From Comamonas antarctica (GTDB taxonomy: Bacteria > Pseudomonadota > Gammaproteobacteria > Burkholderiales > Burkholderiaceae_C): DNA of 64,000 nucleotides. The notes beneath the pieces are model-generated. The model ran no database searches. It saw only the letters and a program-made list of their open reading frames with translations, and was not told the DNA's origin. The translations under genes and the position numbers were made by a program. Below are positions 4,405-25,576 of this stretch, piece by piece (position 1 is the first letter of the stretch; each line of letters begins with the position of its first letter). The stretch covers positions 3,589,501 through 3,653,500 of the forward strand of contig NZ_CP054840.1 in assembly GCF_013363755.1 (NCBI RefSeq), written 5' to 3'.

Positions 4405-5837
4405 GATTTCGGAAGCTTGCTCGGCCGCTTCCAGTGGGCGAGGATGGCCTGGCGGCCACGCGCCACTCCCAGCGTGCCTGCGGGCACATCCTTGGCAATG
4501 GTCGACCCGCCACCCACGGTCGCGCCCGCACCCACGGTGACCGGCGCCACCAGCACGCAATTGCTGCCGATGTGCGCATCTGCCTCGATGACCGTGCGGT
4601 GCTTGTTCACGCCGTCATAGTTGGCCGTGATGCTGCCGGCGCCGTAATTCACGCGCTCGCCCACCGTGGCGTCGCCCAGGTAGGCGAGATGGTTGGCCTT
4701 GGCGCCGTCGGCCAGCGTGCTGTTCTTGACCTCGACGAAGTTGCCGATATGCACTTCGCGGCCGAGCCGGGCACCCGGGCGCAGGCGCGCAAACGGCCCG
4801 ATCAGCGCGCCCTCGCCCACCGACACGCCCAGCTTGTCGCCATCGATGTGGGTGTAGGGATGGATGACCGCGCCCGCATCGATGGCGGCATTGGAAATGC
4901 AGCAGTACGCGCCGATCGAGGCGCCGGCGCCAATCGCCACCGTGCCGCTGAAGATGCAGCCGACGTCGATCTCCACGTCCTGTCCGCAGGCCAGCGCGGC
5001 GCGCGCCCCGCTGCGCGCATCGTCGCGCAGGTCGAAACGCGCGGGATCGGCCAGTCGCACGCCCTGCTCCATCAGCGCGTCGGCCTGGCGCAGCTGGTGC
5101 GCGCGCTCGAGCTGCGCCAGCTGCACCGGGCTGTTGACGCCCGCCACCTGCAGCGCGTCTTCGATGCAGTGCGCGACCACGGGCACGCCGTCGGCGACGG
5201 CCATGGCAACGATGTCGGTGAGGTAGTACTCGCCCTGGGCATTGTCATTGGTCAGGCGCGCCAGCCAGCCACGCAGCAGCCGCGCGGGCACGGCCATGAT
5301 GCCGCTGTAGATCTCGTTGATGCGCCGCTGCGCGTCGCTCGCATCCTTGTGCTCGACGATCGCCTGCACCGCGCCATCGGCAGCGCGCACGATGCGGCCG
5401 TAGCCGCTCGGGTCGGGCAGAGCCACGGTCAGCAGCGCCAGCCGCTCGCTGCCCGCAGCGGCCACCAGGTCATGCAAGGTCTGCGCCTGGGTCAGCGGCA
5501 CATCGCCCGAAAGCACCACGGCCACGCCATCGTCCGGCAACAGCGGCGCCGCCTGCTGCACCGCGTGCCCCGTGCCCAGTTGCGGCTCCTGGCGCACGAA
5601 CTTCAGCGCATAGCCTGCGGGTGCGGCCTGCGCCGCGGCCGTGATCGCCTCCTCGACCTGTTGCGCACCATGGCCGGTCACCACCACCGCGCTGCGCGCG
5701 CCCAGTTGCGCGGCCTGGTCGAGCACGTGCTGCAGCAGCGGCCGTCCCGCCAGGCGCTGCAATACCTTGGGAAGGCGGCTTTTCATGCGCGTGCCTTTGC
5801 CCGCGGCCATGATGATGAGGTCCAGTGCTGCTGTCAT
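4401..5837 (-). CDS. glmU: Bifunctional UDP-N-acetylglucosamine pyrophosphorylase / glucosamine-1-phosphate N-acetyltransferase
   Basis: Performs the last two steps to UDP-GlcNAc: acetylation of glucosamine-1-phosphate and uridylyl transfer. The 478-residue protein has an N-terminal nucleotidyltransferase domain with the signature AAGKGTRMKSRLPKVL and the GDVPL metal/nucleotide motif. The C-terminal left-handed beta helix of hexapeptide repeats (from about residue 265) contains the acetyl-CoA site region NYDGVNKHRT. It belongs to the same pathway as glmS, 1.4 kb away. Its stop overlaps the start of a histidine kinase by 4 bases, an unusual partnership. Confidence 0.97.
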   Translation of the reverse strand: MTAALDLIIMAAGKGTRMKSRLPKVLQRLAGRPLLQHVLDQAAQLGARSAVVVTGHGAQQVEEAITAAAQAAPAGYALKFVRQEPQLGTGHAVQQAAPLLPDDGVAVVLSGDVPLTQAQTLHDLVAAAGSERLALLTVALPDPSGYGRIVRAADGAVQAIVEHKDASDAQRRINEIYSGIMAVPARLLRGWLARLTNDNAQGEYYLTDIVAMAVADGVPVVAHCIEDALQVAGVNSPVQLAQLERAHQLRQADALMEQGVRLADPARFDLRDDARSGARAALACGQDVEIDVGCIFSGTVAIGAGASIGAYCCISNAAIDAGAVIHPYTHIDGDKLGVSVGEGALIGPFARLRPGARLGREVHIGNFVEVKNSTLADGAKANHLAYLGDATVGERVNYGAGSITANYDGVNKHRTVIEADAHIGSNCVLVAPVTVGAGATVGGGSTIAKDVPAGTLGVARGRQAILAHWKRPSKLPKS

Positions 5838-6000
5838 TTGATTGCCTGTCGTATATCGGAAGACTGCGCTTTGGAGGCACAGACACAGGGCGAATTATCG
5901 TGCCCCGGCCTTGTGGCGCCCACCACGTTTGCCTCATGCCGGCTGCACGCGGATATCTTTTACATTTCAGCACTACCCATTTGCTGCCTGGAAGCTGCCC

Positions 6001-6975
6001 ATGCCCGCCTCGCCTCCTCCCCCCTCGCCGCCGCTGCGCACGCGCGCCGTGGCTGCGGGCCATCTGCGCGCATTCGTGGCCGCGGCCGAACACCTGAACT
6101 TCCGCGCCGCGGCCGATACGCTGGCGCTCACGCCCTCGGCCGTGAGCCGGCAGATCCAGGCACTCGAAGATGAAGTGGGCGTGGCGCTGTTCCTGCGCCA
6201 CACGCGCGCCGTGGAGCTGACCAGCGCCGGCGTGCATCTGCTGCGCGCCGTGGCGCCCGGGCTCGAGCGCATCGATGCCGCCGTGCGCCAGCTGCGCCAG
6301 ACCGCGGGGCGCAAGAGCGTGGCCATCACCACCTGGGCGAGTTTTGCCGCGATGTGGCTGATTCCGCGGCTCGAAGCCTTTCAGCGCGAGTTTCCCGACA
6401 TCGACATCCGCATCGACACTTCGGACACGGTGATGGACATGGAGACCACCGATGTCGACCTGGCGCTGCGCTACAGCCGCGCGCCCGAGTCGCCTGCGGC
6501 CGAGCGCCTGTTCGGCGAGCAGCTGGCCGTCGTGGCCAGCCCCTGGCTGCTGCGCAGCCAGCCGGCGATCCGCACGCCGGCCGATGCCGCGCGCTTCACG
6601 CTCATCGAAACCGGCGACGCGCAGCGCCTGCCGCAGCTGGCCTGGCTCGGCTGGCAGCGCTGGTTCCATGCGCATGGCTGCGCGCCGCTGCAGCCGCCGC
6701 GCTGGCTCTATTTCAATTACGCCCACCAGATGGCGCAGGCCGCGCTCGCCGGCCAGGGCCTGGCCATTGCGCGCCTGCCCCTGGTGGCCGATGCACTGGC
6801 CAGCGGCGACCTGGTCGAGGTGCTGCCCGCCCACCGCCTCGACTCGCCCCTGGCCTACTGGCTGCTGCCCGGCCCGCGCAGCGCCCCGCGCCCCGAGGTG
6901 CAGGCATTTTGCGAGTGGCTGCGCACCCAGGCGGCGCTGACGCGCGAGGCCATGGGGCTGCCGGAACTCAGCTGA
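6001..6975 (+). CDS. LysR-family transcriptional regulator (GcvA-like)
   Basis: A 324-residue regulator with the winged helix-turn-helix at about residues 20-80 ([23 protein letters not shown]) and a type 2 periplasmic-binding-like effector domain after residue 110. The start at 6001 begins MPASPPPP and gives a normal LysR length; the frame is open upstream, but that part looks non-coding. It is divergent from glmU across about 160 bases. Its stop overlaps the converging tyrS stop by 8 bases. The GcvA-like features are the W..L...Q.F..E.P arrangement and the SDTVMD-type pocket. The target genes are unknown. Confidence 0.88.
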
Positions 6976-8200
6976 GCGTCACCCGCGCGAATTTGCGCTT
7001 GCCCACCTGCACCACCCAGGTGCCGGCGTCGATCTTCAAGCCGCGGTCGCTGACCACCGCACCATCGATGCGCACGCCGCCGCCATCGATCAGGCGGTTG
7101 GCTTCGCTGGTCGAGGGCGCCAGGTTGGCCTGCTTGAGCAGCGCGCCAATGCCCAGCGGCGCGCCGGACAGCTGGACTTCGGGAATCTCGTCGGGCACGC
7201 CGCCCTTGCTGCGGTTGATGAAATCCTGCTCGGCGGCATCGGCCGCGGCGGCCGAGTGGAAGCGCGCGGTGATTTCCTTGGCCAGCATGACCTTCGCGTC
7301 CTTGGGATTGCGCCCGCCCGCGACTTCGGCCTTGAGCGCGGCAATCTCGGCCAGGCTCTTGAACGACAGCAGCGTGTACCAGTCCCACATCAGCGTGTCC
7401 GAGATCGACAGCACCTTGGCGAACATGGTGTTGGCGTCTTCGGTGATGCCGATGTAATTGTTCTTCGACTTCGACATCTTCTCGACGCCGTCGAGGCCCA
7501 CCAGCAGCGGCATGGTGAGCACGCACTGCGGCTCCTGGCCGTATTCCTGCTGCAGGTGGCGGCCCATCAGCAGGTTGAATTTCTGGTCGGTGCCGCCGAG
7601 TTCGAGGTCGGCCTTGAGCGCCACCGAGTCATAGCCCTGCAGCAGCGGGTAGAGGAATTCATGCAGCGAGATCGACTGGCCGCCATGGAAGCGCTTGTGG
7701 AAGTCGTCGCGCTCCATCATGCGCGCCACGGTGTACTTGGCCGACAGCTCGATCATGCCGCGCGCGCCCAGCTGGTCGCACCATTCGCTGTTGTAGCGCA
7801 CCTCGGTGCGTGCCGGGTCGAGCACCATGGCCGCCTGGCGGTAGTAGGTTTCGGCGTTGACCTTGATCTGCTCGGCGGTCAGCGGCGGGCGTGTCGAGTT
7901 GCGTCCCGACGGGTCGCCGATCAGCGTGGTGAAATCGCCGATCAGGAAAATCACCTGGTGGCCCAGATCTTGCAACTGGCGCATCTTGTTGAGGACCACC
8001 GTATGACCGATATGAATATCCGGCGCCGTAGGATCGAGACCGAGCTTCACCCGCAGGGGCACGCCCGTGGCTTCGGAGCGCGCCAGCTTGCGTGTCCACT
8101 CTTCCTGCGGCAGCAGCTCATCGACTCCGCGCAACGTGGTTTCGAGCGCTTGTCCTACGCCATCAGTGACCGGATATGTTGTAACAACAGGTTGATTCAT
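6968..8200 (-). CDS. tyrS: Tyrosyl-tRNA synthetase
   Basis: Class I aminoacyl-tRNA synthetase that charges tRNA-Tyr. The 410-residue protein shows HIGHT (the HIGH motif, about residue 57), KMSKSKN (the KMSKS loop), a Tyr-binding Rossmann core, and a C-terminal S4 RNA-binding domain with GGGVRIDG. The length fits the TyrS2/TyrZ subgroup. The ATG at 8200 begins MNQPVV. The same frame stays open far upstream, but that part lies antisense to the M23 peptidase gene and is not homologous. It is divergent from the peptidase gene. Confidence 0.96.
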
Positions 8201-8236
8201 AAGGGTTTTTTTCGATGCCCGGGGAGTGACCCCCGC

Positions 8237-8242
8237 TATAAT
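8237..8242 (+). promoter_or_regulatory. Candidate -10 box between tyrS and the M23 peptidase gene
   Basis: A perfect TATAAT sits in the divergent gap 145 bases before the peptidase start. No good -35 element is found at 16-18 bases, so this is only a candidate; the complementary strand offers a weaker element for tyrS. Confidence 0.3.
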
Positions 8243-8386
8243 TCGTCGCTTATCGCTGTGGCGAATTCTAGTAGGGTCCCCGTATCGGCATGTGCCGAAT
8301 GGCTTCCACCCCCTGGACCGCGCGTCCTGCCACATCTTCTCATGACCGCCCGCCTGACTTGACGCGCACCGACACGGGAACTCATT

Positions 8387-9745
8387 TTGAAATCTGGCCT
8401 GATCCTCGCTGGCACTTCGGTGCTCGCCCAGCTTCGCAATACCCTGCAACGCCACCCCAAGCGTGTCACTGCCGCAGTGGCCGCCGTGCTGCTTTCCGGC
8501 GGTGGCGGCGCCTTTGCCGTGGCCTCGCTCGGTCCTGATCCAGCCGACCTGCCGGTGCGCACCCTGACCCAACAGGTCGCTTCGCTGGCCGACGACACCC
8601 CCCTGGTCGAGCTGACCGAACTGCAGGATTTCGCGCTCTATCGCTCCGACCTGTCGCGCGCCAATGACAGCGCCGAAGCCCTGCTGCAGCGCCTGGGCGT
8701 TGCCGACCCCGAAGCTTCGGCCTACCTGCGCAGCAACGAGCAGGTGCGTCAGAACCTGCTGGCCCGCGGCGGCCGCCTGATCTCTGCCGAAGCCACCAAC
8801 GACCACCAGCTGACGCGACTGACGGCGCGCTGGGCGCCCGACGAAGAAAGCAGCAAGTTCCAGCGCCTGGTCGTCGAGCGCCAGGGCAAGGGTTTCGTGA
8901 CGCGCCTGGAAACCGGCGACCTGGTGGCCAACCAGCGCCTCGCCGGCGGCACCATCCAGAGTTCGCTGTTTGCCGCCACCGATGCGTCCAACATTCCCGA
9001 CTCCGTGGCATCGCAACTGGCCGAGGTGTTCAACGGCAAGATCGATTTCCGCCGCTCGCTGCGCAAGAACGACCGCTTCACGCTGGTCTATGAAACGCTC
9101 GAAGCCGATGGCGAACCGCTGCGCAGCGGCCGCCTGCTGAGCGCCGAATTCAACAACAACGGCAGCATTCACCAGGCCATGTGGTTCCAGGAACCCGGCA
9201 CCAAGGGCGCGTACTACGGCCTCGACGGCTCAAGCCTGGAGCGCTCCTACCTGTCGGCACCGCTCGCGTTCTCGCGCGTCAGCAGCGGTTTTGCCATGCG
9301 CTTCCACCCGATCCAGAAGACCTGGCGCGCGCATGCGGGCACCGACTTCGCCGCGCCCACGGGCACGGCAGTGCGCACCGTGGCCGATGGCGTCGTCGAA
9401 TTCGCCGGCGTGCAAAACGGCTATGGCAACGTGATCTTCGTCAAGCACCCCGACAACAACGTCACGGTCTACGCCCACCTGAGCCGCATCGATGTGCGCC
9501 GCGGTGCCAGCGTCGCGCAGGGCACAACCCTGGGCGCCGTGGGCTCGACCGGCTGGGCGACCGGCCCGCACCTGCACTTCGAAGTGCGCGTCAACGGCAA
9601 GGCCCAGGACCCCATGACCGTCATCGGCCAGGCCCAAGCGGCCCGCCCGGTTTCGGCTGCAGCCCGCGCCAGCTTCAACCGCCAGGCCGCGCAGATGCGC
9701 CTTGCGCTCGAATCCGCCCAGCAGACCCTGGCCAGCGCCGAATAA
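8387..9745 (+). CDS. M23 family metallopeptidase (LytM/MepM-like, peptidoglycan)
   Basis: The 452-residue protein has one N-terminal membrane/signal segment (about residues 27-47), an opacity-associated/LysM-like middle region, and a C-terminal LytM zinc-peptidase domain. The first zinc ligand motif is HAGTDFAAP and the HLHFE motif supplies the last histidine. It should act in the periplasm, cutting peptide crosslinks or activating amidases during cell elongation or division. The start is a TTG at 8387; no in-frame ATG precedes it near a ribosome site. A strong terminator follows, and anmK, another cell-wall gene, comes next. Confidence 0.9.
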
Positions 9746-9766
9746 ACTGCCGCCCGCTTCTGCCCG

Positions 9767-9792
9767 AAAAGCCGCTGCCCAGCGGCTTTTTT
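9767..9792 (+). terminator. Rho-independent terminator after the M23 peptidase gene
   Basis: The stem AAAAGCCGCT/AGCGGCTTTT with loop GCCC is followed by a run of six T, starting 22 bases after the stop codon. Confidence 0.85.
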
Positions 9793-9830
9793 CATGCCTG
9801 TCCCGATGTCCTGCCGCTACCATTGCCTGC

Positions 9831-10958
9831 ATGCCTGCTGCCTCCACCACTCCTGATCTGTATATCGGCCTGATGTCGGGCACCTCGCTGGATGGCGTCG
9901 ACGGGGTGCTGGTTGATTTCCAGGGCCGCTTGAAGGTATTGCAGCATGCGAGCTGCGGCTTCGATGTCGGACTGCGCGCCGAGCTCCTGGCACTCAATGC
10001 GCCGTGCGACAACGAGTTGCACCGCGCAGCGCTGGCCGCCAACGCGCTCGTGGGCTGCTATGCGCAGGTCGTGCAACGGCTGCTCGAGCGCTCGGGTCTG
10101 CCGGCCAGCGCGGTGCGTGCCGTGGGCGCGCATGGACAAACCGTGCGCCACCGCCCGCAGATGTTCGGCGGCACCGGCTACACGCTGCAGCTCAACAACC
10201 CGGCGCTGCTGGCCGAACGCTGCGGCATCTGCGTCGTTGCCGATTTCCGCAGCCGCGACGTGGCCGCGGGCGGCCAGGGCGCGCCGCTGGTACCGGCCTT
10301 CCACCAGAGCGTGTTCGGCCATACCGGACAGACGCTGCTGGTGCTCAATATCGGCGGCATCTCCAACCTGAGCGTGCTGGCGGCCGATGGCGCCGTGGGC
10401 GGCTTCGACTGCGGCCCGGGCAATGCGCTGATGGATGCCTGGTGCCAGCGCCACACGGGCCAGGCCTATGACGACAACGGCGCCTGGGCCGCGAGCGGCA
10501 AGGTGCTGCCGGCGCTGCTGCAGCGGCTGCTGGACGAACCCTTCCTGCAGCAGTTGCCGCCCAAGAGCACGGGCCGCGATCTTTTCAGCGCGCGCTGGCT
10601 GCAGGAGCAGCTGGCCGGCCTGCCATCCGGCACGCGCGCCGAGGACGTACAGGCCACGCTGACCGAGTTCACGGCGCGCGCCTGCGCCGACGCTGCCGGG
10701 CGCTGGGGCATGGGCGCGCAGCAACTGCTGGTCTGCGGCGGCGGCGCGCTCAACGGATACCTGCTGTCACGGCTTGCGGCGCTGCTGCCCGGGGTCGACG
10801 TGCAGACGACCAGCGCGGCCGGCCTGCCGCCACTGCAGGTCGAAGCCGCGGCCTTTGCCTGGCTTGCGCGCCAGACCCTGCTGGGCCTGCCCGGCAACCT
10901 GGCCCGCGTGACCGGTGCCCACGGACCGCGCGTGCTGGGCGCGATTTACCCCGCCTGA
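9831..10958 (+). CDS. anmK: Anhydro-N-acetylmuramic acid kinase
   Basis: Phosphorylates and opens 1,6-anhydro-MurNAc to MurNAc-6-phosphate in peptidoglycan recycling. The 375-residue product begins with a phosphate-binding motif typical of the family (LYIGLMSGTSLDGVDGVL). It also shows GAHGQTVRHRP, NIGGISNLSVL, and GGGALNGYLL near the C terminus (ASKHA fold). The ATG at 9831 directly precedes this motif; the frame upstream is the terminator region. The end abuts the convergent DHA2 transporter gene by 3 bases. Its position beside an M23 peptidase fits a cell-wall turnover context. Confidence 0.96.
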   Translation: MPAASTTPDLYIGLMSGTSLDGVDGVLVDFQGRLKVLQHASCGFDVGLRAELLALNAPCDNELHRAALAANALVGCYAQVVQRLLERSGLPASAVRAVGAHGQTVRHRPQMFGGTGYTLQLNNPALLAERCGICVVADFRSRDVAAGGQGAPLVPAFHQSVFGHTGQTLLVLNIGGISNLSVLAADGAVGGFDCGPGNALMDAWCQRHTGQAYDDNGAWAASGKVLPALLQRLLDEPFLQQLPPKSTGRDLFSARWLQEQLAGLPSGTRAEDVQATLTEFTARACADAAGRWGMGAQQLLVCGGGALNGYLLSRLAALLPGVDVQTTSAAGLPPLQVEAAAFAWLARQTLLGLPGNLARVTGAHGPRVLGAIYPA

Positions 10959-17768: not shown

Positions 17769-19199
<1,431 letters not shown>

Positions 19200-19263
19200 G
19201 GTTTTCTCCGTTACGGATGGCAAAACCACGCTCTGGGGGGAAGGCACTCACCGCACAGACGAC

Positions 19264-19421: not shown

Positions 19422-20648
19422 TTAGGCCCCGGCCTTCGCGAGCTGGCGCACCCGCAATGCCATTGCCAGCACCGCCGCCAGCAACACCAGCATGAAGGCC
19501 ACCAGCCCGGACCAGCCGGTGTTCTGCATGAACCAGCCGCTGCCCGCGCCCAGCAGGCTCGAGCCCAGGTAATAGCCCAGCAGATAAAGCGACGACGCAT
19601 GGCCCTTGGCTTCGCGCGCGATCCGCCCGACCCAGCCGCTGGCCACCGAATGCGCAGTGAAGAAGCCGATGGTCATCAGCACGATGCCGGCAACGATCGC
19701 GGCCAGCGCCGGCGCGAGGGTCAGCAGCACGCCCAGCGCCATCAGCGCCACGCCGGCCAGCAGCACCGGCGCGCGCCCGAAGCGGTCGGCCAGCGCACCG
19801 GCGACCGGCGAGGCAATGGCGCCGAACAGATAGGCATAGAACACATGGCTGACCTGCAGCGGGCTCAGCGAATAGGGCGTGCCGGCGAGCAGAAAACCCA
19901 GGTAGTTGTACATGCCGACGAACACGCCCATCAGCCCGAACGCAATCACGAACAGGCCCAGCAGCCCGGGCTGCGCCAGGTGCCGGCCCCAGGCGCGCAG
20001 GTGATAGGCCGCACCCAGGCCGGTCTTGCGCACGAAGTTGCGCGAGACCGGCAGCAACAGGTAGAAGCCGATGGCCGCCAGCAGGTTGACCAGGCTCAGC
20101 GCGGCCAGCGCAATGTGCCAGTCGACATATTCGCTCATCACGCCCATGGCCACGCGCCCCAGCATGCCGCCCAGCGCCGAGCCGCCGACATAGAGGCCCA
20201 TCGCGAAACCCAGGCCGCGCGGCTCGATCTCCTCGGACAGGTAAGCCATCGCCACGGCCGGCACGCCGCCCAGCAGCAGGCCTTCGAGCGCACGCGCCGC
20301 GAGCAGCGTCTCCCAGCTGGGCGCGAGGCTGGCGGCGAGATTGCACAGCGCGGCCAGCAGCATCGAGACGAACATCAAGCCGCGCCGCCCCAGTCCCTCG
20401 GACAGCGCACCCGCCAGCACGATGGCCACCGCCAGGCAGCCCGTGGTCAGCGACAGCGACAGCGCGCTGCTGGCCGGCGTCACGCCGAAATGCGCCACGA
20501 ATGCCGGCAGCAGCGGCTGCACGCAATACAGCAGCGAGAACGTCGCGAACCCGGCAAGGAACAGCGCCAGGCTGATGCGGCGGTAGGCCGGCGTTCCGCG
20601 CGCGACCCAGGAGGCTTGCGGCGCGGCGCCGCTGGAAGGGGAAGACAT
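19422..20648 (-). CDS. MFS transporter, AraJ/YnfM-like (DHA1)
   Basis: A 408-residue protein with 12 predicted hydrophobic segments, motif A in LSEGLGRRGLM and its second-half counterpart in LADRFGRAP. The N terminus (about 25 residues) is polar. Family members export drugs or small metabolites. It lies 92 bases downstream of the cytochrome P450 gene on the same strand and may form a transcription unit with it and the duplicated-domain protein. That would make it a candidate exporter of their product. The next gene on this strand, ahcY, has its own promoter and riboswitch. Confidence 0.85.
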   Translation of the reverse strand: MSSPSSGAAPQASWVARGTPAYRRISLALFLAGFATFSLLYCVQPLLPAFVAHFGVTPASSALSLSLTTGCLAVAIVLAGALSEGLGRRGLMFVSMLLAALCNLAASLAPSWETLLAARALEGLLLGGVPAVAMAYLSEEIEPRGLGFAMGLYVGGSALGGMLGRVAMGVMSEYVDWHIALAALSLVNLLAAIGFYLLLPVSRNFVRKTGLGAAYHLRAWGRHLAQPGLLGLFVIAFGLMGVFVGMYNYLGFLLAGTPYSLSPLQVSHVFYAYLFGAIASPVAGALADRFGRAPVLLAGVALMALGVLLTLAPALAAIVAGIVLMTIGFFTAHSVASGWVGRIAREAKGHASSLYLLGYYLGSSLLGAGSGWFMQNTGWSGLVAFMLVLLAAVLAMALRVRQLAKAGA

Positions 20649-20740
20649 GGCCAGAGCAGAGAAAAAAAGCAGACCCCGCGATTGTGCGGTGCAACGCAGC
20701 TTGCGCCGCAGCGCGGCTGCCCGCCTCCCCGCCGCAGGCG

Positions 20741-22084
20741 CTATCGGTGCGGCAGCGACCGCCGCTCCTGCACGACCATGGGCACGCCGCCGCGTGGCCC
20801 CAGGCTCAGCGCACGGCGCTCATGCACCGGGGGCTGCTTGTCCAGCAGGCGCAGCCGGTGGCCGCGCACGATGCTGGCCACCACCACCTTCAGCTCATAC
20901 ATCGCAAAGGCCGCGCCCAGGCAGCGGCGCGCACCGCCGCCAAAGGGAATGTATTCAAACGACGAATATTTGCGCTCGGCAAAGCGTTCGGGCCGGAAGC
21001 GCTCGGGTTCGGGATAGAGCGCAGGCCGGGCATGCAGCAGCGCGCTCGAAGCGCGCAGCACTTCGCCCGCCGGGATCGTGTAGCCCAGCAAGGCAAATGG
21101 CTTGCGCACGACCCGTGCCGAATCGACCACCGGCGGGTACAGGCGCAGGCACTCCTTGCAGACCATTTCAAGATACGGCAGCGCCGCCAGCGCGTCAGGC
21201 GCGGGCGCCGGGCCCAGGTCCTTGATTTCCTGCGCGACCCGCGCCAGCACCGCCGGCTCGCGCCCCAGCCAGTGGAAGATCCAGGCCAGCACGGTGGCCG
21301 TCGCCTCGTGCCCGGCAAACAGCAGCCCGCGCAGCTGGTCGAGGATTTGCGCGTCGTCCATGCCCGAGCCATCGTCGTAGCGCGCGGCCAGCATGCGGCC
21401 CAGCAGATCGGCGCCCGACGCCGCGCCAAGGCGGCGTTCGCGCATCTGCTCGCGCAGCAGCGCACCCAATGCCTCCACCGCGCGCTGGTTCCTGGCCCAG
21501 GGCCCCCAGCCGCTCAGCACGCGGCGCGCGGAGGGAAACAGGAAAAGAATGACATGCAGGGACTCGATGAGTTCGAGCACCGCCGCGCGGGTGCGCGCGA
21601 TCCGCGTCTCGTCCTGCATGCCGAACACCACCCGGATCATGATGTCCAGCGTGATGCGCTGGGTCACGTCGAGCATGCGAAACGGCTGCCCCACCGCGAT
21701 CTGCGCCATCTTTTCTTCGGCAACAGCCGCCATCACCGCGCCATCGGCGCGCATCGCGGGCCCGCTGAACGCGGGCGCCAGGAGGTTGCGGTCCTGCCGA
21801 TGCCGGTCGCCTGAGGTCACCACGACCGAAGCCGGGCCGAACACCGGCTCGATGAAGCTCCCGTCCCACACCTCGAAGCAGTCGGGACTGGCGGTGTAGA
21901 TCGCCCGCAGCGCGTCCGGGTGGCCGGTGAAGGTGACGGGCCGCGAGAGATACGACACCCGGAACGGGTCGCCATGGCGTGCCGCCAGGCGCGCGAGCAC
22001 CGGCGCCGGGGGCGTCAGCCCGGCCTGGAAGAAACTCAGCGGCCGCAGCCATTGCGGTCCGGGCGGCAGCGGCCCGCGTTTCAT
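20741..22084 (-). CDS. Cytochrome P450
   Basis: The 447-residue heme monooxygenase has an N-terminal proline-rich PPGP, an I-helix oxygen-activation motif (LFAGHEATATVL), a K-helix ExxR (KECLR), the PERF meander region (EPERFRPERF), and a heme-thiolate loop FGGGARRCLGAAFA with the proximal Cys. There is no membrane anchor, so it is probably soluble and needs a separate ferredoxin and reductase, neither of which is adjacent. The pattern resembles fatty-acid or terpenoid hydroxylases (CYP110/CYP4-like), but the substrate is unknown. Its ATG overlaps the stop of the upstream gene by 4 bases (ATGA), so the two are translationally coupled. Confidence 0.95.
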   Translation of the reverse strand: MKRGPLPPGPQWLRPLSFFQAGLTPPAPVLARLAARHGDPFRVSYLSRPVTFTGHPDALRAIYTASPDCFEVWDGSFIEPVFGPASVVVTSGDRHRQDRNLLAPAFSGPAMRADGAVMAAVAEEKMAQIAVGQPFRMLDVTQRITLDIMIRVVFGMQDETRIARTRAAVLELIESLHVILFLFPSARRVLSGWGPWARNQRAVEALGALLREQMRERRLGAASGADLLGRMLAARYDDGSGMDDAQILDQLRGLLFAGHEATATVLAWIFHWLGREPAVLARVAQEIKDLGPAPAPDALAALPYLEMVCKECLRLYPPVVDSARVVRKPFALLGYTIPAGEVLRASSALLHARPALYPEPERFRPERFAERKYSSFEYIPFGGGARRCLGAAFAMYELKVVVASIVRGHRLRLLDKQPPVHERRALSLGPRGGVPMVVQERRSLPHR

Positions 22085-23637
22085 GCCGGCCCCAATGCCG
22101 CCGTGTCGCGCGTGATGCCGTGGCTGGCGCTGTCGATGCCGAAGAAATCCTGCGTGGCCACGGCGTGCGACAGCGTCAACTGCCGGTCGACGGCGTCAAA
22201 GACGGTGTGCACCATGGCGATGGCGATCTGCGTTTCTTCCTCGCCAAGCGGCAGGCTCTTGAACGGATGGCCGCGGGCGGGATGGTCCTCGCCTTCGGGA
22301 TGCGCCAGGTAATGCCGGTCGGCCAGGTAATCGAGGCGCATGGCCGTGGTGCGCTCGATGGACTGCGCCAGCGCGCGGGTATTGGCAAAGAAGGCCTCGC
22401 CGCTGGCTTCGAGCGCCTCGAGCAGCCAGAAACGCAAGGCCGGCGATTCATGTGCAATGGCCAGCTTGGTGAAGCGGGCGATATTGCTGCGGTGCACGTC
22501 GGTGCCCGGGTCGAGGAACAGGAATTCCAGCGTGCTGCTGGCGCTCCAGCCCAGCGCGTCGTCCATGCCGAGGGCATCCCAATCGTTGAGAAACAACGCG
22601 CTGTGCGTCTCCAGCGCCTGTACCCAGCGGTTGAAGGCCCGCTCGGCGGGGCTGGCCGGCGACTTGAAACGCAGCGCGTAGCGGTTCAGGTCGCGGTAGC
22701 CCATGATGTCCATCACCCACATTGGAATGAAGCGCTGCAGGCGGTGCAACGGGGACAGCGGGCCGCTGGCCTGCAGCCACGCATAGAAGGGGTGGCGCGC
22801 CGCGCGGGCCTTGCGGCCTTCCAATACGCGTTGCACCTGGATGTTGCGGCCCGTGGCGGCAAGCTCCTGCGCCGGCGCTCCTGCCGGCTTGTGGCGCATC
22901 GGCGGCAGCGGCGCGCGCGTGCGCTGCGGCACGATTCCACGCTCGACGTAGTTGCGCGCATAGCCGTGGAAGCAGTCATGCATGCCGAAGAAGATATCGA
23001 ACATCGCATTGGCCAGCGCCAGGCCTTTCTCGCGCCGCACCGGGTCGAGTTCCTGGCGGTCGAAGATGCCTTCGGACGCAATCACATGTCCGCGTTCACG
23101 CTGCAGGTGGTAATCGCCAAAATAGCGGTATTCGACCTGTGTCTGCTGGCGCAGCGCGGCCGTGATCGGGCAGATGGCGCTGAAGAAGGCGTTGCCGCAG
23201 GCTTCGCCGGCCTCCGAGTGGGCGAACCTGAGCAAGGGATCACCAGTGTCGTCCATGGCCAGGCGCGCAAAGTCGAACGCATAGCCCCGGAACGGCTCGG
23301 TTTCGGCGGCTTGGAACAGCCACCACAGCGTGTCGGATGCGCGCCAGCCCAGCTTCTCGTCGAGATGCAGCTTGCGCCAATCCTCGATGAAAAGCCGCGA
23401 GTGGGTTTCATCCTCTTCGGTATTGCCGTTGATCACTTCCTCGAACTGGTTGGATACCCCGGCAAAGCGGATGAACCACAGGTTCATGTCGCGGAAGTTC
23501 ATGACGAAGTTCGCCATGATCGGCGCAATGTCGAGCTTGATGTGCGCAGGCACGCGGGGGTCGCGGATCCAGCTGAAGAACGGGTGGGCAGCGAGACGCT
23601 CCTTGCGTTGCGCGGCCAGCGCCAGAATGGTTTTCAT
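22081..23637 (-). CDS. Tandem-duplicated heme-oxygenase-fold-like protein, putative diiron/iron-redox enzyme
   Basis: The 518-residue protein is an internal duplication. Residues about 10-190 and 276-456 align with an almost constant offset of 266: R-x-x-x-x-HPF near each start, RD-x-N (49/315), ETHS (77/343), LGW-x-AS (96/362), and EA-x-EA-x-G-x-AFF (142/407). The first unit carries H177-x3-E181-x2-H184, the pattern of the last ligand group in heme-oxygenase-like diiron oxidases, and a later HDCFH. The second unit has a disrupted version (H442..H446..H452). No signal peptide was found. The start at 23637 has an AGGAGG site 8 bases upstream; the frame upstream is antisense to prfC's leader. 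It is coupled to the P450. The exact family is inferred, not certain. Confidence 0.7.
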   Translation of the reverse strand: MKTILALAAQRKERLAAHPFFSWIRDPRVPAHIKLDIAPIMANFVMNFRDMNLWFIRFAGVSNQFEEVINGNTEEDETHSRLFIEDWRKLHLDEKLGWRASDTLWWLFQAAETEPFRGYAFDFARLAMDDTGDPLLRFAHSEAGEACGNAFFSAICPITAALRQQTQVEYRYFGDYHLQRERGHVIASEGIFDRQELDPVRREKGLALANAMFDIFFGMHDCFHGYARNYVERGIVPQRTRAPLPPMRHKPAGAPAQELAATGRNIQVQRVLEGRKARAARHPFYAWLQASGPLSPLHRLQRFIPMWVMDIMGYRDLNRYALRFKSPASPAERAFNRWVQALETHSALFLNDWDALGMDDALGWSASSTLEFLFLDPGTDVHRSNIARFTKLAIAHESPALRFWLLEALEASGEAFFANTRALAQSIERTTAMRLDYLADRHYLAHPEGEDHPARGHPFKSLPLGEEETQIAIAMVHTVFDAVDRQLTLSHAVATQDFFGIDSASHGITRDTAALGPA

Positions 23638-23950
23638 CGCACAGCCTCCTCGTTGGCGGCAGCGCGCGTCGATGGTTCCGCGTTGCATGCCGCCGACTCG
23701 ATGGTCCCAGAAGCCGGAGCCCGGCCATGCCATCCATGCAGATGTCGGCATGCCATCAACGCCGCATCGCGCATGCCCCATGGCGGCCGCGTTTATTCCC
23801 GCCGCGCCCCATTGCTGCGCTGTGGTCGCTAAAATCCTGGTCTTCCCCGGGCCCCGTCTGCCGGCGCTGTACCAGCGCCCCGCACGTATGCGCGCCTGTC
23901 CGCCTCCCTGCCGCACGCTTTGCCGCGAGCGGCCACGCACCCGTACCAAA
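23638..23950. other. Divergent intergenic region (313 bases)
   Basis: Holds the strong AGGAGG ribosome site (23646-23651) of the duplicated-domain gene and presumably the promoters of that gene and prfC. No convincing -35/-10 pair, terminator or gene was seen. The end nearest prfC is open in the prfC frame but shows no family-like sequence. Confidence 0.6.
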
Positions 23951-25576
23951 GTGTCCTACGCTTCTGAAACCCGGCGCCGCCGCACGTTCGCCATCATTTC
24001 CCACCCGGACGCGGGCAAGACCACGCTGACCGAAAAGCTGTTGCTGTTCTCGGGCGCGATCCAGATCGCGGGCGCCGTCAAGGGCCGCAAGGCCAGCCGC
24101 CATGCCACGTCCGACTGGATGGAAATCGAAAAGCAGCGCGGCATCTCGGTGGCCTCGTCGGTCATGCAGATGTCGTACCGCGACCATGTCGTGAACCTGC
24201 TCGACACCCCGGGCCACAAGGACTTCTCCGAAGACACCTACCGCGTGCTGACGGCCGTCGACTCGGCACTGATGGTCATCGATGCGGCCAACGGCGTCGA
24301 AGCCCAGACGCGCCGGCTGATCGAGGTCTGCCGCCAGCGCGACACGCCCATCATCACCTTCGTCAACAAGATGGACCGCGAAGTGCGCGACCCGCTGGAC
24401 ATCATGGACGAGGTCGAGCGCGAACTCGGCATGCCCTGCTGCCCCATGACCTGGCCCGTGGGCCAGGGCAAGAGCTTCGGCGGCATCATCAACCTGCGCA
24501 CGCGCACCATGACGGTGTTCGAATCGGGCAGCGAGCGCCGTCCGCAGGATTTCGAGACCATTCCACTGAGCGATGTCGACAAGCTGCGCGCGCGCTTCGG
24601 CGACACCTTCGACACCGCGATGGAAAGCATGGAACTGGCCGTGGGCGCATCGCCGGAATGGGACCATGAGGCATTCCTCGCCGGCAAGCTGACGCCGGTG
24701 TTCTTCGGCTCCGGCGTGAACAACTTCGGCGTGATGGAAGTGCTCGATGCACTGGTCGACATGTCGCCCCCGCCGGGTCCGCGCACCAGCACGCTGGTGG
24801 TCAACAAGCAGCCCGTGGTCAAGACCATCGAGCCCGACGACAAGGGCTTCTCGGGCGTGGTGTTCAAGGTCCAGGCCAACATGGACGCCAACCACCGCGA
24901 CCGCATCGCGTTCGTGCGCGTGGCCTCGGGCCGCTATGTGCCGGGCATGAAGCTGCGCGTGCAGCGCACCGGCAAGGACATGCGCCCGACCTCGGTCGTG
25001 ACCTTCATGAGCCAGCGCCGCGAAGCCGTCGAGGAAGCCTATGCGGGCGACATCATCGGCTTCACCATCCATGGCGGCGTGCAGCTCGGCGACACCATCA
25101 CCGATGGCGCGGCGCTGCAGTTCACCGGCCTGCCGTTCTTCGCACCCGAAATGTTCATGACCGTGGTGCTGAAGAACCCGCTGCGCACCAAGCAGCTGCA
25201 GCAGGGCCTGGCCCAGCTCGGCGAGGAAGGCGCGATCCAGGTGTTCAAGCCCGATGCCGGCGGCAACATGCTGCTGGGCGCGATCGGCCAGCTGCAGTTC
25301 GAAGTCGTGCAGCACCGCCTCAAGGCCGAGTACGACGCCGACATCCGCCTCGAAGCCTGCCAGTACACGGGCGCGCGCTGGATCACCGCCGACACCCCGG
25401 CCGAGCTGCGCGAATTCGAGAACGCCTATGTGCTACGCATGGCGCACGACGCTGCCGGCACCCTGGCCTACCTGTGCACCTCGCCCTACGACGTGCGCCT
25501 GGCCCAGGAGCGTTTCCCCAAGATCCACTTCCATCCGCTGCGCGAGCACGCGGGCTTGTCGCTGAGCAACAGCTGA
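23951..25576 (+). CDS. prfC: Peptide chain release factor 3
   Basis: GTPase that recycles RF1/RF2 from the ribosome after termination. The 541-residue protein has G1 SHPDAGKTTLTEK, G2 region RGISVASSV, G3 DTPGHKDFSEDTYR and G4 NKMDRE, followed by EF-G-like domains II and III. The start is assigned to the GTG at 23951 (MSYASETRRRRTFAI), where the family similarity begins; an ATG 21 codons upstream would add arginine/cysteine-rich sequence with no family match. There is no obvious Shine-Dalgarno sequence. Confidence 0.95.
   Translation: MSYASETRRRRTFAIISHPDAGKTTLTEKLLLFSGAIQIAGAVKGRKASRHATSDWMEIEKQRGISVASSVMQMSYRDHVVNLLDTPGHKDFSEDTYRVLTAVDSALMVIDAANGVEAQTRRLIEVCRQRDTPIITFVNKMDREVRDPLDIMDEVERELGMPCCPMTWPVGQGKSFGGIINLRTRTMTVFESGSERRPQDFETIPLSDVDKLRARFGDTFDTAMESMELAVGASPEWDHEAFLAGKLTPVFFGSGVNNFGVMEVLDALVDMSPPPGPRTSTLVVNKQPVVKTIEPDDKGFSGVVFKVQANMDANHRDRIAFVRVASGRYVPGMKLRVQRTGKDMRPTSVVTFMSQRREAVEEAYAGDIIGFTIHGGVQLGDTITDGAALQFTGLPFFAPEMFMTVVLKNPLRTKQLQQGLAQLGEEGAIQVFKPDAGGNMLLGAIGQLQFEVVQHRLKAEYDADIRLEACQYTGARWITADTPAELREFENAYVLRMAHDAAGTLAYLCTSPYDVRLAQERFPKIHFHPLREHAGLSLSNS

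Follow-up and report, generated by a model that had tools for sequence, protein, structure and literature searches.

Organization of the AetD2–P450 locus

We analysed a 64,000-nucleotide stretch (hereafter the window) of the 5.03-Mb, three-contig genome of Comamonas antarctica (contig NZ_CP054840.1, positions 3,589,501 to 3,653,500), in which the gene for a tandem protein related to the diiron nitrile synthase AetD overlaps the gene for a cytochrome P450. The tandem protein, named AetD2 in this analysis, contains two copies of a unit with the predicted fold of the heme-oxygenase-like diiron oxidases (HDOs), and the two genes form an islet between a release-factor gene and a gene for a major facilitator superfamily (MFS) transporter. 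A preliminary description had presented three minus-strand open reading frames (ORFs) at this locus as a small oxidative pathway with its own exporter. All three ORFs were recovered at the same positions, as were the ATGA overlap of the first two and the gap of 92 bp between the P450 and MFS genes (Table 1), and Pfam searches supported the identities of the P450 (E 1.4e-66) and the transporter (E 7.7e-41). The flanking genes are presumably prfC on the right and ahcY on the left.

Table 1. Features of the AetD2–P450 locus (window coordinates)
Feature	Position	Strand	Basis and remarks
AetD2, 518-aa tandem AetD-like HDO protein	22081..23637	minus	ORF, ATG start
Domain 1, residues 1–236, predicted catalytic diiron HDO domain	22930..23637	minus	
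HLQRERGH motif, residues 177–184 (AetD H172-x3-E176-x2-H179)	23086..23109	minus	Alignment to AetD
Domain 2, residues 262–503, paralogous domain without full diiron ligand set	22129..22854	minus	
D310–Y314 (positions of AetD F44 and F48)	22696..22710	minus	Both residues in 120/120 proteins
Cytochrome P450, 447 aa	20741..22084	minus	ORF; ATGA overlap with AetD2
Two-gene islet AetD2–P450, about 3,094 bp	20699..23792	none	BLAST alignment ends, approximate; absent from G009
Shine–Dalgarno-like GAGGAGG ahead of AetD2 ATG	23645..23651	minus	Sequence
MFS transporter, 408 aa	19422..20648	minus	ORF, Pfam; resident of prfC–ahcY region, outside islet
Presumed prfC (peptide chain release factor 3), right flank	23999..25576	plus	ORF
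Presumed ahcY (adenosylhomocysteinase), left flank	17769..19247	minus	ORF

AetD2 is a tandem duplicate whose nearest characterised relative is AetD

The two halves of AetD2 aligned with each other in BLASTP (E 7e-30, 33% identity over 208 aa) and in a profile–profile comparison (probability 100, E 2e-47), confirming the proposed duplication of one unit. The offset between the halves was given earlier as a constant 266 residues; it was 266 at the five pairs checked as far as residue 99 and 265 at the five from residue 145 on, so that the earlier figure is nearly exact. In a tree of the domains, the first domains and the second domains formed separate groups, each including all 26 tandem proteins, which indicates that the duplication is old.

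AetD2 had no Pfam match above the cut-off, two sub-threshold matches being at chance level (E 0.075 and 0.2), and NCBIfam gave nothing even at E values up to 1. At that same limit, the Pfam matches did not include the HDO model Pfam14518, named in PMC11363339; AetD-type HDOs may fall outside that model. No Pfam domain was precomputed for any of the 120 proteins listed out of 208. The only PDB sequence match was AetD (three distinct sequences, E 3e-21). The full-length predicted structure had a predicted local distance difference test score of 91.2 and a predicted template-modelling score of 0.91. Domain 2 was hardly tested in the structure list obtained with this model, and it was therefore also modelled separately. 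AetD filled the top 21 Foldseek rows for both models, and both matched HDO structures, supporting the proposed heme-oxygenase-like fold, which has seven helices. The placement in the HDO superfamily therefore stands, with AetD as the closest relative rather than UndA or SznF, the examples named previously; AetD2 is related to AetD by sequence and fold more than to other HDOs. AetD itself has been described as very low in sequence identity to characterised proteins.

Domain 1 retains the predicted metal ligands and amino-acid contacts of AetD

The diiron ligands of AetD are D76, H79, E140, H172, E176 and H179; F44 and I146 clamp the indole ring, Y167 binds the substrate carboxylate, S214 contacts the bromine, and F48 sits at the position of the extra ligand of SznF (PMC11611611, PMC10654658). 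A hydrophobic residue at F48 is a mark of substrate-triggered HDOs (PMC11611611). Alignment of domain 1 to AetD gave the corresponding set of three His and three carboxylates, D76, H79, E145, H177, E181 and H184. The H-x3-E-x2-H motif reported for the first unit was confirmed at residues 177–184 and occurs nowhere else in the protein.

Conservation was counted over an alignment of 120 proteins, comprising P0001 and 119 relatives, which are those listed out of 208 at E ≤ 0.001. Each predicted ligand was conserved in 113 to 120 of these: E145, H177 and E181 were invariant, D76 and H79 were present in 119 each (one gap each), and H184 was the least conserved. The substrate-contact equivalents were similarly constant, with Y172 (AetD Y167) in all 120 and F44 and F48 in 118 each (two gaps each), so that domain 1 carries both the hydrophobic residue at F48 and the amino-acid contacts of the AetD type. 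Nine aligned single-domain relatives also retain the ligand residues. The side-chain pocket is altered: I146 of AetD corresponds to F151 (101 Phe, 18 Met, 1 Leu), S214 to F216 (119 Phe, 1 Ile), and M139 and A142 to G144 and C147. Judged from the alignment, the predicted ligands and the contacts to the amino-acid head are those of AetD, and the predicted pocket for the side chain differs.

Domain 2 has an altered site and may act as a built-in dimer partner

The second unit had been called disrupted, which holds for three of the six ligand positions: the equivalents of D76, E176 and H179 are L342, H446 and G449, and domain 2 does not carry the full HDO ligand set. L342 is Leu in 120/120 proteins, H446 is His in 80 and otherwise variable, and the H179 position is variable. 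The other three positions are kept, namely H345 (AetD H79) and H442 (H172), each in 120/120, and E410 (E140) in 118, with Gln in two. Y437 (Y167), D310 and Y314 are likewise each found in 120/120. Plain decay was ruled out as an explanation of domain 2, as several former active-site positions are invariant or nearly so in the 120 proteins. We read the pattern as apparent selection on a changed site. In iron-free AetD, the carboxylate and amine of the substrate form hydrogen bonds with H79 and H172 (PMC11611611); since the equivalents of both are kept in domain 2, either a single metal or an amino-acid-like ligand could be bound there. Both His residues are lost in four second tandem copies (L011, L012, L014 and L016).

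A site of the kind found in FlcD was also considered for domain 2 and rejected, the residue ten positions before H345 being F335, not Glu. FlcD was absent among the best 50 Foldseek matches listed for the domain-2 model, which does not exclude a likeness to FlcD.

In the full-length model, residues 99 and 365 stood out as isolated bridge residues. The two sites are equivalent, with an offset of exactly 266, and no bridge at the matching site was present in the model of domain 2 alone. AetD is a dimer in solution, with an inter-protomer sheet at T95/M96. We read the paired 99/365 bridges of the model as a probable internal copy of the AetD dimer.

The inherited unit consists of two genes

The tandem protein was found in three of 53 same-genus genomes (G000, the genome of the window, G005 and G026), a match in G034 covering domain 1 only; the place of the unit on its contig in G026 coincides with that of locus L029 (Acidovorax sp. 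CCYZU-2555). In 399 genomes drawn from the family, the tandem match occurred in G000 only and seven genomes had single-domain matches, G005 and G026 not being among the matches of this draw. The MFS gene (E ≤ 1e-40) was more widespread, occurring in 22 of the 53 genomes, with a second, 60% identical copy elsewhere in G000.

In 17 of the 19 MFS-bearing genomes that lack the islet, the MFS gene lies 268–395 bp from prfC (2,195 and 8,387 bp in the two exceptions). This gap is 3,351 bp in G000 and 3,369 bp in G026, with AetD2 and the P450 inside; in G005, prfC and the MFS gene are on separate contigs. The empty site of G009 was directly alignable: its prfC–MFS intergenic DNA matched the window up to 20698 and resumed at 23793, and the corresponding alignment ends in G038 were 20718 and 23786. 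These empty sites indicate that AetD2 and the P450 make up a separate islet, about 3.1 kb long, and that the MFS gene is an older neighbour. The inherited unit is therefore two genes, not three. On the empty-site evidence, the transporter was rejected as a pathway member, and its proposed role as the exporter of the pathway is not supported: co-inheritance with AetD2 and the P450 was not observed.

A repeat search of 20500–24000 detected no convincing border repeats. Scans for promoters and terminators gave none against 0.3 expected and two against 2.2 expected, respectively.

Pairing of AetD2 with a P450 is recurrent

Cytochromes P450 are recognised by a heme-Cys motif, an ExxR motif and an I-helix motif, and the islet P450 carries all three (FGGGARRCLG, ExxR and AGHEAT). 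It is the only P450 match in its genome. Among the 53 same-genus genomes, a P450 about 84% identical to it was found only in the other two AetD2 genomes, adjoining AetD2 in each; the remaining 24 of the 27 genomes with any P450 match had at most 34% identity. In the 399 family genomes, only G000 had a P450 close to the islet P450 (E ≤ 1e-80).

The neighbourhood was surveyed in 29 loci, 28 from the search plus the window, and the pairing proposed earlier was borne out in part. Thirteen loci have a P450 within 1 kb (L004, L005, L010, L011, L012, L014, L016, L019, L025, L026, L029, L031 and the window). All were assigned by Pfam except those of L004 and L029, for which BLAST gave 84% identity to the islet P450; clustering and Pfam alone identified that of L010. 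The other 16 loci (L006–L009, L013, L015, L017, L018, L020–L024, L027, L028 and L030) do not follow this arrangement. In L013, L017 and L018, a P450 is located 2.9–3.4 kb away, and in three genomes of this set (G461, G468 and G469) whole-genome counts gave no P450 match. Grouping by eye reduced the 29 loci to 15 lineages, nine of which have a P450 within 1 kb. As several of the genomes hold 30–50 P450s, a single adjacency in them could be due to chance, and it is the recurrence that carries the argument. The pairing is thus recurrent, and is neither universal nor restricted to one P450 family.

Outside the genus, the closest P450s among 13 genomes searched were found in Sorangium and Polyangium (53–56% identity), which also contain AetD2 relatives, suggesting that the islet was acquired from Myxococcota. 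The neighbouring P450 of the Sorangium locus L005 is 56% identical to the islet P450; in Sorangium G466 and Polyangium G448 and G450, the P450s closest to it are not beside AetD2.

Relatives on plasmids and in other bacteria

The AetD2 family comprised 208 proteins at E ≤ 0.001. A 240-aa query returned 13 proteins of 142–379 aa, apparently mostly fragments of the tandem kind, and relatives with single-domain matches turned up through genome searches. Among 72,556 plasmid records, 332 contained a match, which covered at least 80% of the protein in 319; these comprised 266 records from Escherichia, 36 from Piscirickettsia, 22 from Salmonella and eight others, and 260 were predicted to be conjugative. 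The plasmid-type gene was present in 265 of 5,426 complete Escherichia coli genomes, with 264 of its 269 places on plasmids. This two-domain relative (L048, 7001–8503, and L049), about 40% identical to AetD2, is labelled a hypothetical protein on these mostly conjugative plasmids. In three stretches viewed, no annotated P450 or MFS gene was seen beside it in a gene table that is incomplete; in both E. coli stretches viewed, a P450 was absent from the annotation next to it. A fourth stretch carried no annotation. The plasmid relatives thus seem to stand alone. A lone enzyme in such hosts would most simply use a common metabolite.

Two adjacent tandem copies occur in five actinomycete loci (L011, L012, L014, L016 and L019). 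The metal sites of the second copies are changed in four of them, and the second copy of L019 is split into two pieces. A P450 gene lies near these copies, accompanied in L016 by genes for a DUF6875 protein and an O-methyltransferase; BLAST-linked genes of the O-methyltransferase and DUF6875 genes occur in five and two other loci, respectively. These loci possibly represent an uncharacterised biosynthetic cluster.

Several other arrangements were observed. Locus L076 (G074; 5476–10488) has genes for a single-domain AetD-like protein, a flavin-binding monooxygenase, a P450 and a sodium/hydrogen-exchanger-type transporter in one run. In eight Mycobacterium loci (L013, L017, L018, L021–L024 and L030), the tandem gene adjoins one gene family, whose scanned member in L013 has a PAS-GGDEF-EAL architecture. 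Four BLAST-linked ORFs surround the relative in L020 (Salinisphaera sp. G21_0), the scanned one having Sel1, ankyrin and RING-finger-like domains. In L027 (Yersinia similis; 6518–9183), genes for an ABC solute-binding protein and permease lie on the opposite strand, 0.8–3.5 kb upstream of the relative.

Proposed role of AetD2 and alternatives

We consider it rather probable that AetD2 is a pseudo-dimer within a single chain, that its substrate for oxidation is a free amino acid, and that the P450 acts on the product. AetD2 would correspond to an AetD homodimer whose two subunits have been joined covalently and are no longer alike, and domain 1 would be a substrate-triggered HDO of the three-His/three-carboxylate type. 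A free alpha-amino acid, probably hydrophobic or aromatic, would bind Fe1 via its carboxylate and amine; a labile diiron site would assemble in domain 1 and react with O2 to give a peroxo-diiron(III) species, after which the amino acid would be oxidatively cleaved or rearranged. Domain 2, with most of its Fe2 site lost, would serve as the permanent dimer partner and perhaps binds a single metal or a ligand resembling an amino acid. The P450, where present and perhaps co-transcribed, would oxidise the product of domain 1 further, and the MFS transporter would not be required. That the genes encode a new small-molecule pathway, as the preliminary description suggested, remains an inference.

Several observations weigh against this proposal. 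Domain 1 shares only about 26% identity with AetD, and the substitutions at I146, S214, M139 and A142 mean that neither the substrate nor the product of AetD can be assumed. H184 is His in 113 of the 120 proteins, the others having Phe (three), Tyr (two) or Arg (two), and four second tandem copies (L011, L012, L014 and L016) have Val at F44 and nothing aligned at H184. The models were built on shallow alignments (30 and 23 sequences), and the ligand sites are given by sequence and fold prediction. In 16 of the 29 loci, BLAST clustering of called ORFs, taken with whole-genome P450 counts and with Pfam scans of part of the neighbours, revealed no P450 within 1 kb, and the actinomycete neighbour P450s that could be aligned by BLAST are 23–29% identical to the islet P450. 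To our knowledge, there is no biochemistry for any member of the AetD2 family.

AetD2 might instead carry out the chemistry of AetD itself, converting Trp, Phe or Tyr to a nitrile that the P450 then hydroxylates or couples. AetD is the closest characterised relative, the equivalents of F44, F48 and Y167 and all ligands are conserved, AetD also converts unbrominated Trp (about 35%; PMC10654658), and the PDB holds AetD structures with L-Tyr and L-Phe. We nevertheless think this unlikely, as F151, F216, G144 and C147 replace the pocket residues of AetD, and SktA, which has Phe at 214, makes skatole and not a nitrile (PMC13108848); moreover, the islet contains only AetD2 and the P450, aet-like genes elsewhere in the genome not having been searched for. 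Domain 2 could also be a second catalytic centre, in which mononuclear iron held by D310, H345, H442 and perhaps E410 oxidises the product of domain 1. The invariance of D310, H345, H442 and Y437 despite the lost Fe2 ligands would fit such a centre, yet FlcD has a Glu ten residues before its first ligand His where domain 2 has F335, D310 is a candidate ligand at the level of sequence, and both His residues are gone in four of four second tandem copies from Amycolatopsis and Actinomadura; we rate this as quite improbable. We give a similarly low probability to a broad, unnamed bacterial family in which an AetD-type diiron oxidase is fused to a second HDO domain that has a conserved non-diiron site of its own, a single chain thereby taking a common free amino acid through two O2-dependent steps in turn. 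If so, that family would travel on plasmids as a one-gene trait, present in about 5% of complete E. coli genomes, and in other hosts as a pair of genes that includes a P450.

The occurrence of the gene without an annotated partner on E. coli and Piscirickettsia plasmids would suit a stress or iron/oxidant-handling factor, similar to the HDO-type desiccation factor DtpC of Acinetobacter. The recurrent P450 pairing and the O-methyltransferase and DUF6875 genes near the L016 copy look biosynthetic, however, and the substrate-contact residues are invariant, so that such a factor seems a poor candidate. Least probable, and by our estimate very much so, is the original three-gene version, in which the transporter exports the product of an oxidation pathway. 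Gene order and strand agree with it, and the MFS gene, 92 bp downstream, may be co-transcribed; against this, MFS orthologues lie close to prfC without AetD2 or the P450 in 17 of 19 genomes, and the aligned empty site stops before the MFS gene.

The family offers a natural experiment, with an apparently intact diiron domain beside a paralogue that keeps part of the site. It also provides testable targets in the search for new amino-acid chemistry and may give a lead on a gene annotated as hypothetical on E. coli plasmids.

Comparison with known systems

AetD-type HDO chemistry is already known. In the open-access literature searched, which leaves out most subscription journals, we found neither a tandem AetD-like protein described nor such a family with a partly dismantled second site, P450 pairing and plasmid spread. 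AetD is the diiron nitrile synthase of aetokthonotoxin biosynthesis (PDB 8ji2–8ji7, 8twn, 8twt, 8tww, 8zvg and 8zvh). It is a single-domain homodimer, whereas AetD2 is a fusion of two copies, the second without the equivalents of D76, E176 and H179; at this identity and with an altered pocket, nitrile formation by AetD2 would be an analogy only. SktA is an HDO that converts 5-bromo-Trp to 5-bromoskatole. It shares the predicted ligand set of AetD and has Phe at 214, matching F216 of AetD2, but has Thr at both 139 and 142, where AetD2 has Gly and Cys; it is set apart here by its published description (PMC13108848). Judged from its published description (PMC11363339), FlcD, a mononuclear-iron HDO, resembles domain 2 in having lost two ligands of core helix 3 and kept two His; domain 2 lacks an equivalent of the helix-1 Glu of FlcD. 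UndA, BesC, CADD and HrmI are more distant from AetD2 than AetD is, and differ in the order of their Fe1 ligands, E-H-H versus H-H-E (PMC10654658).

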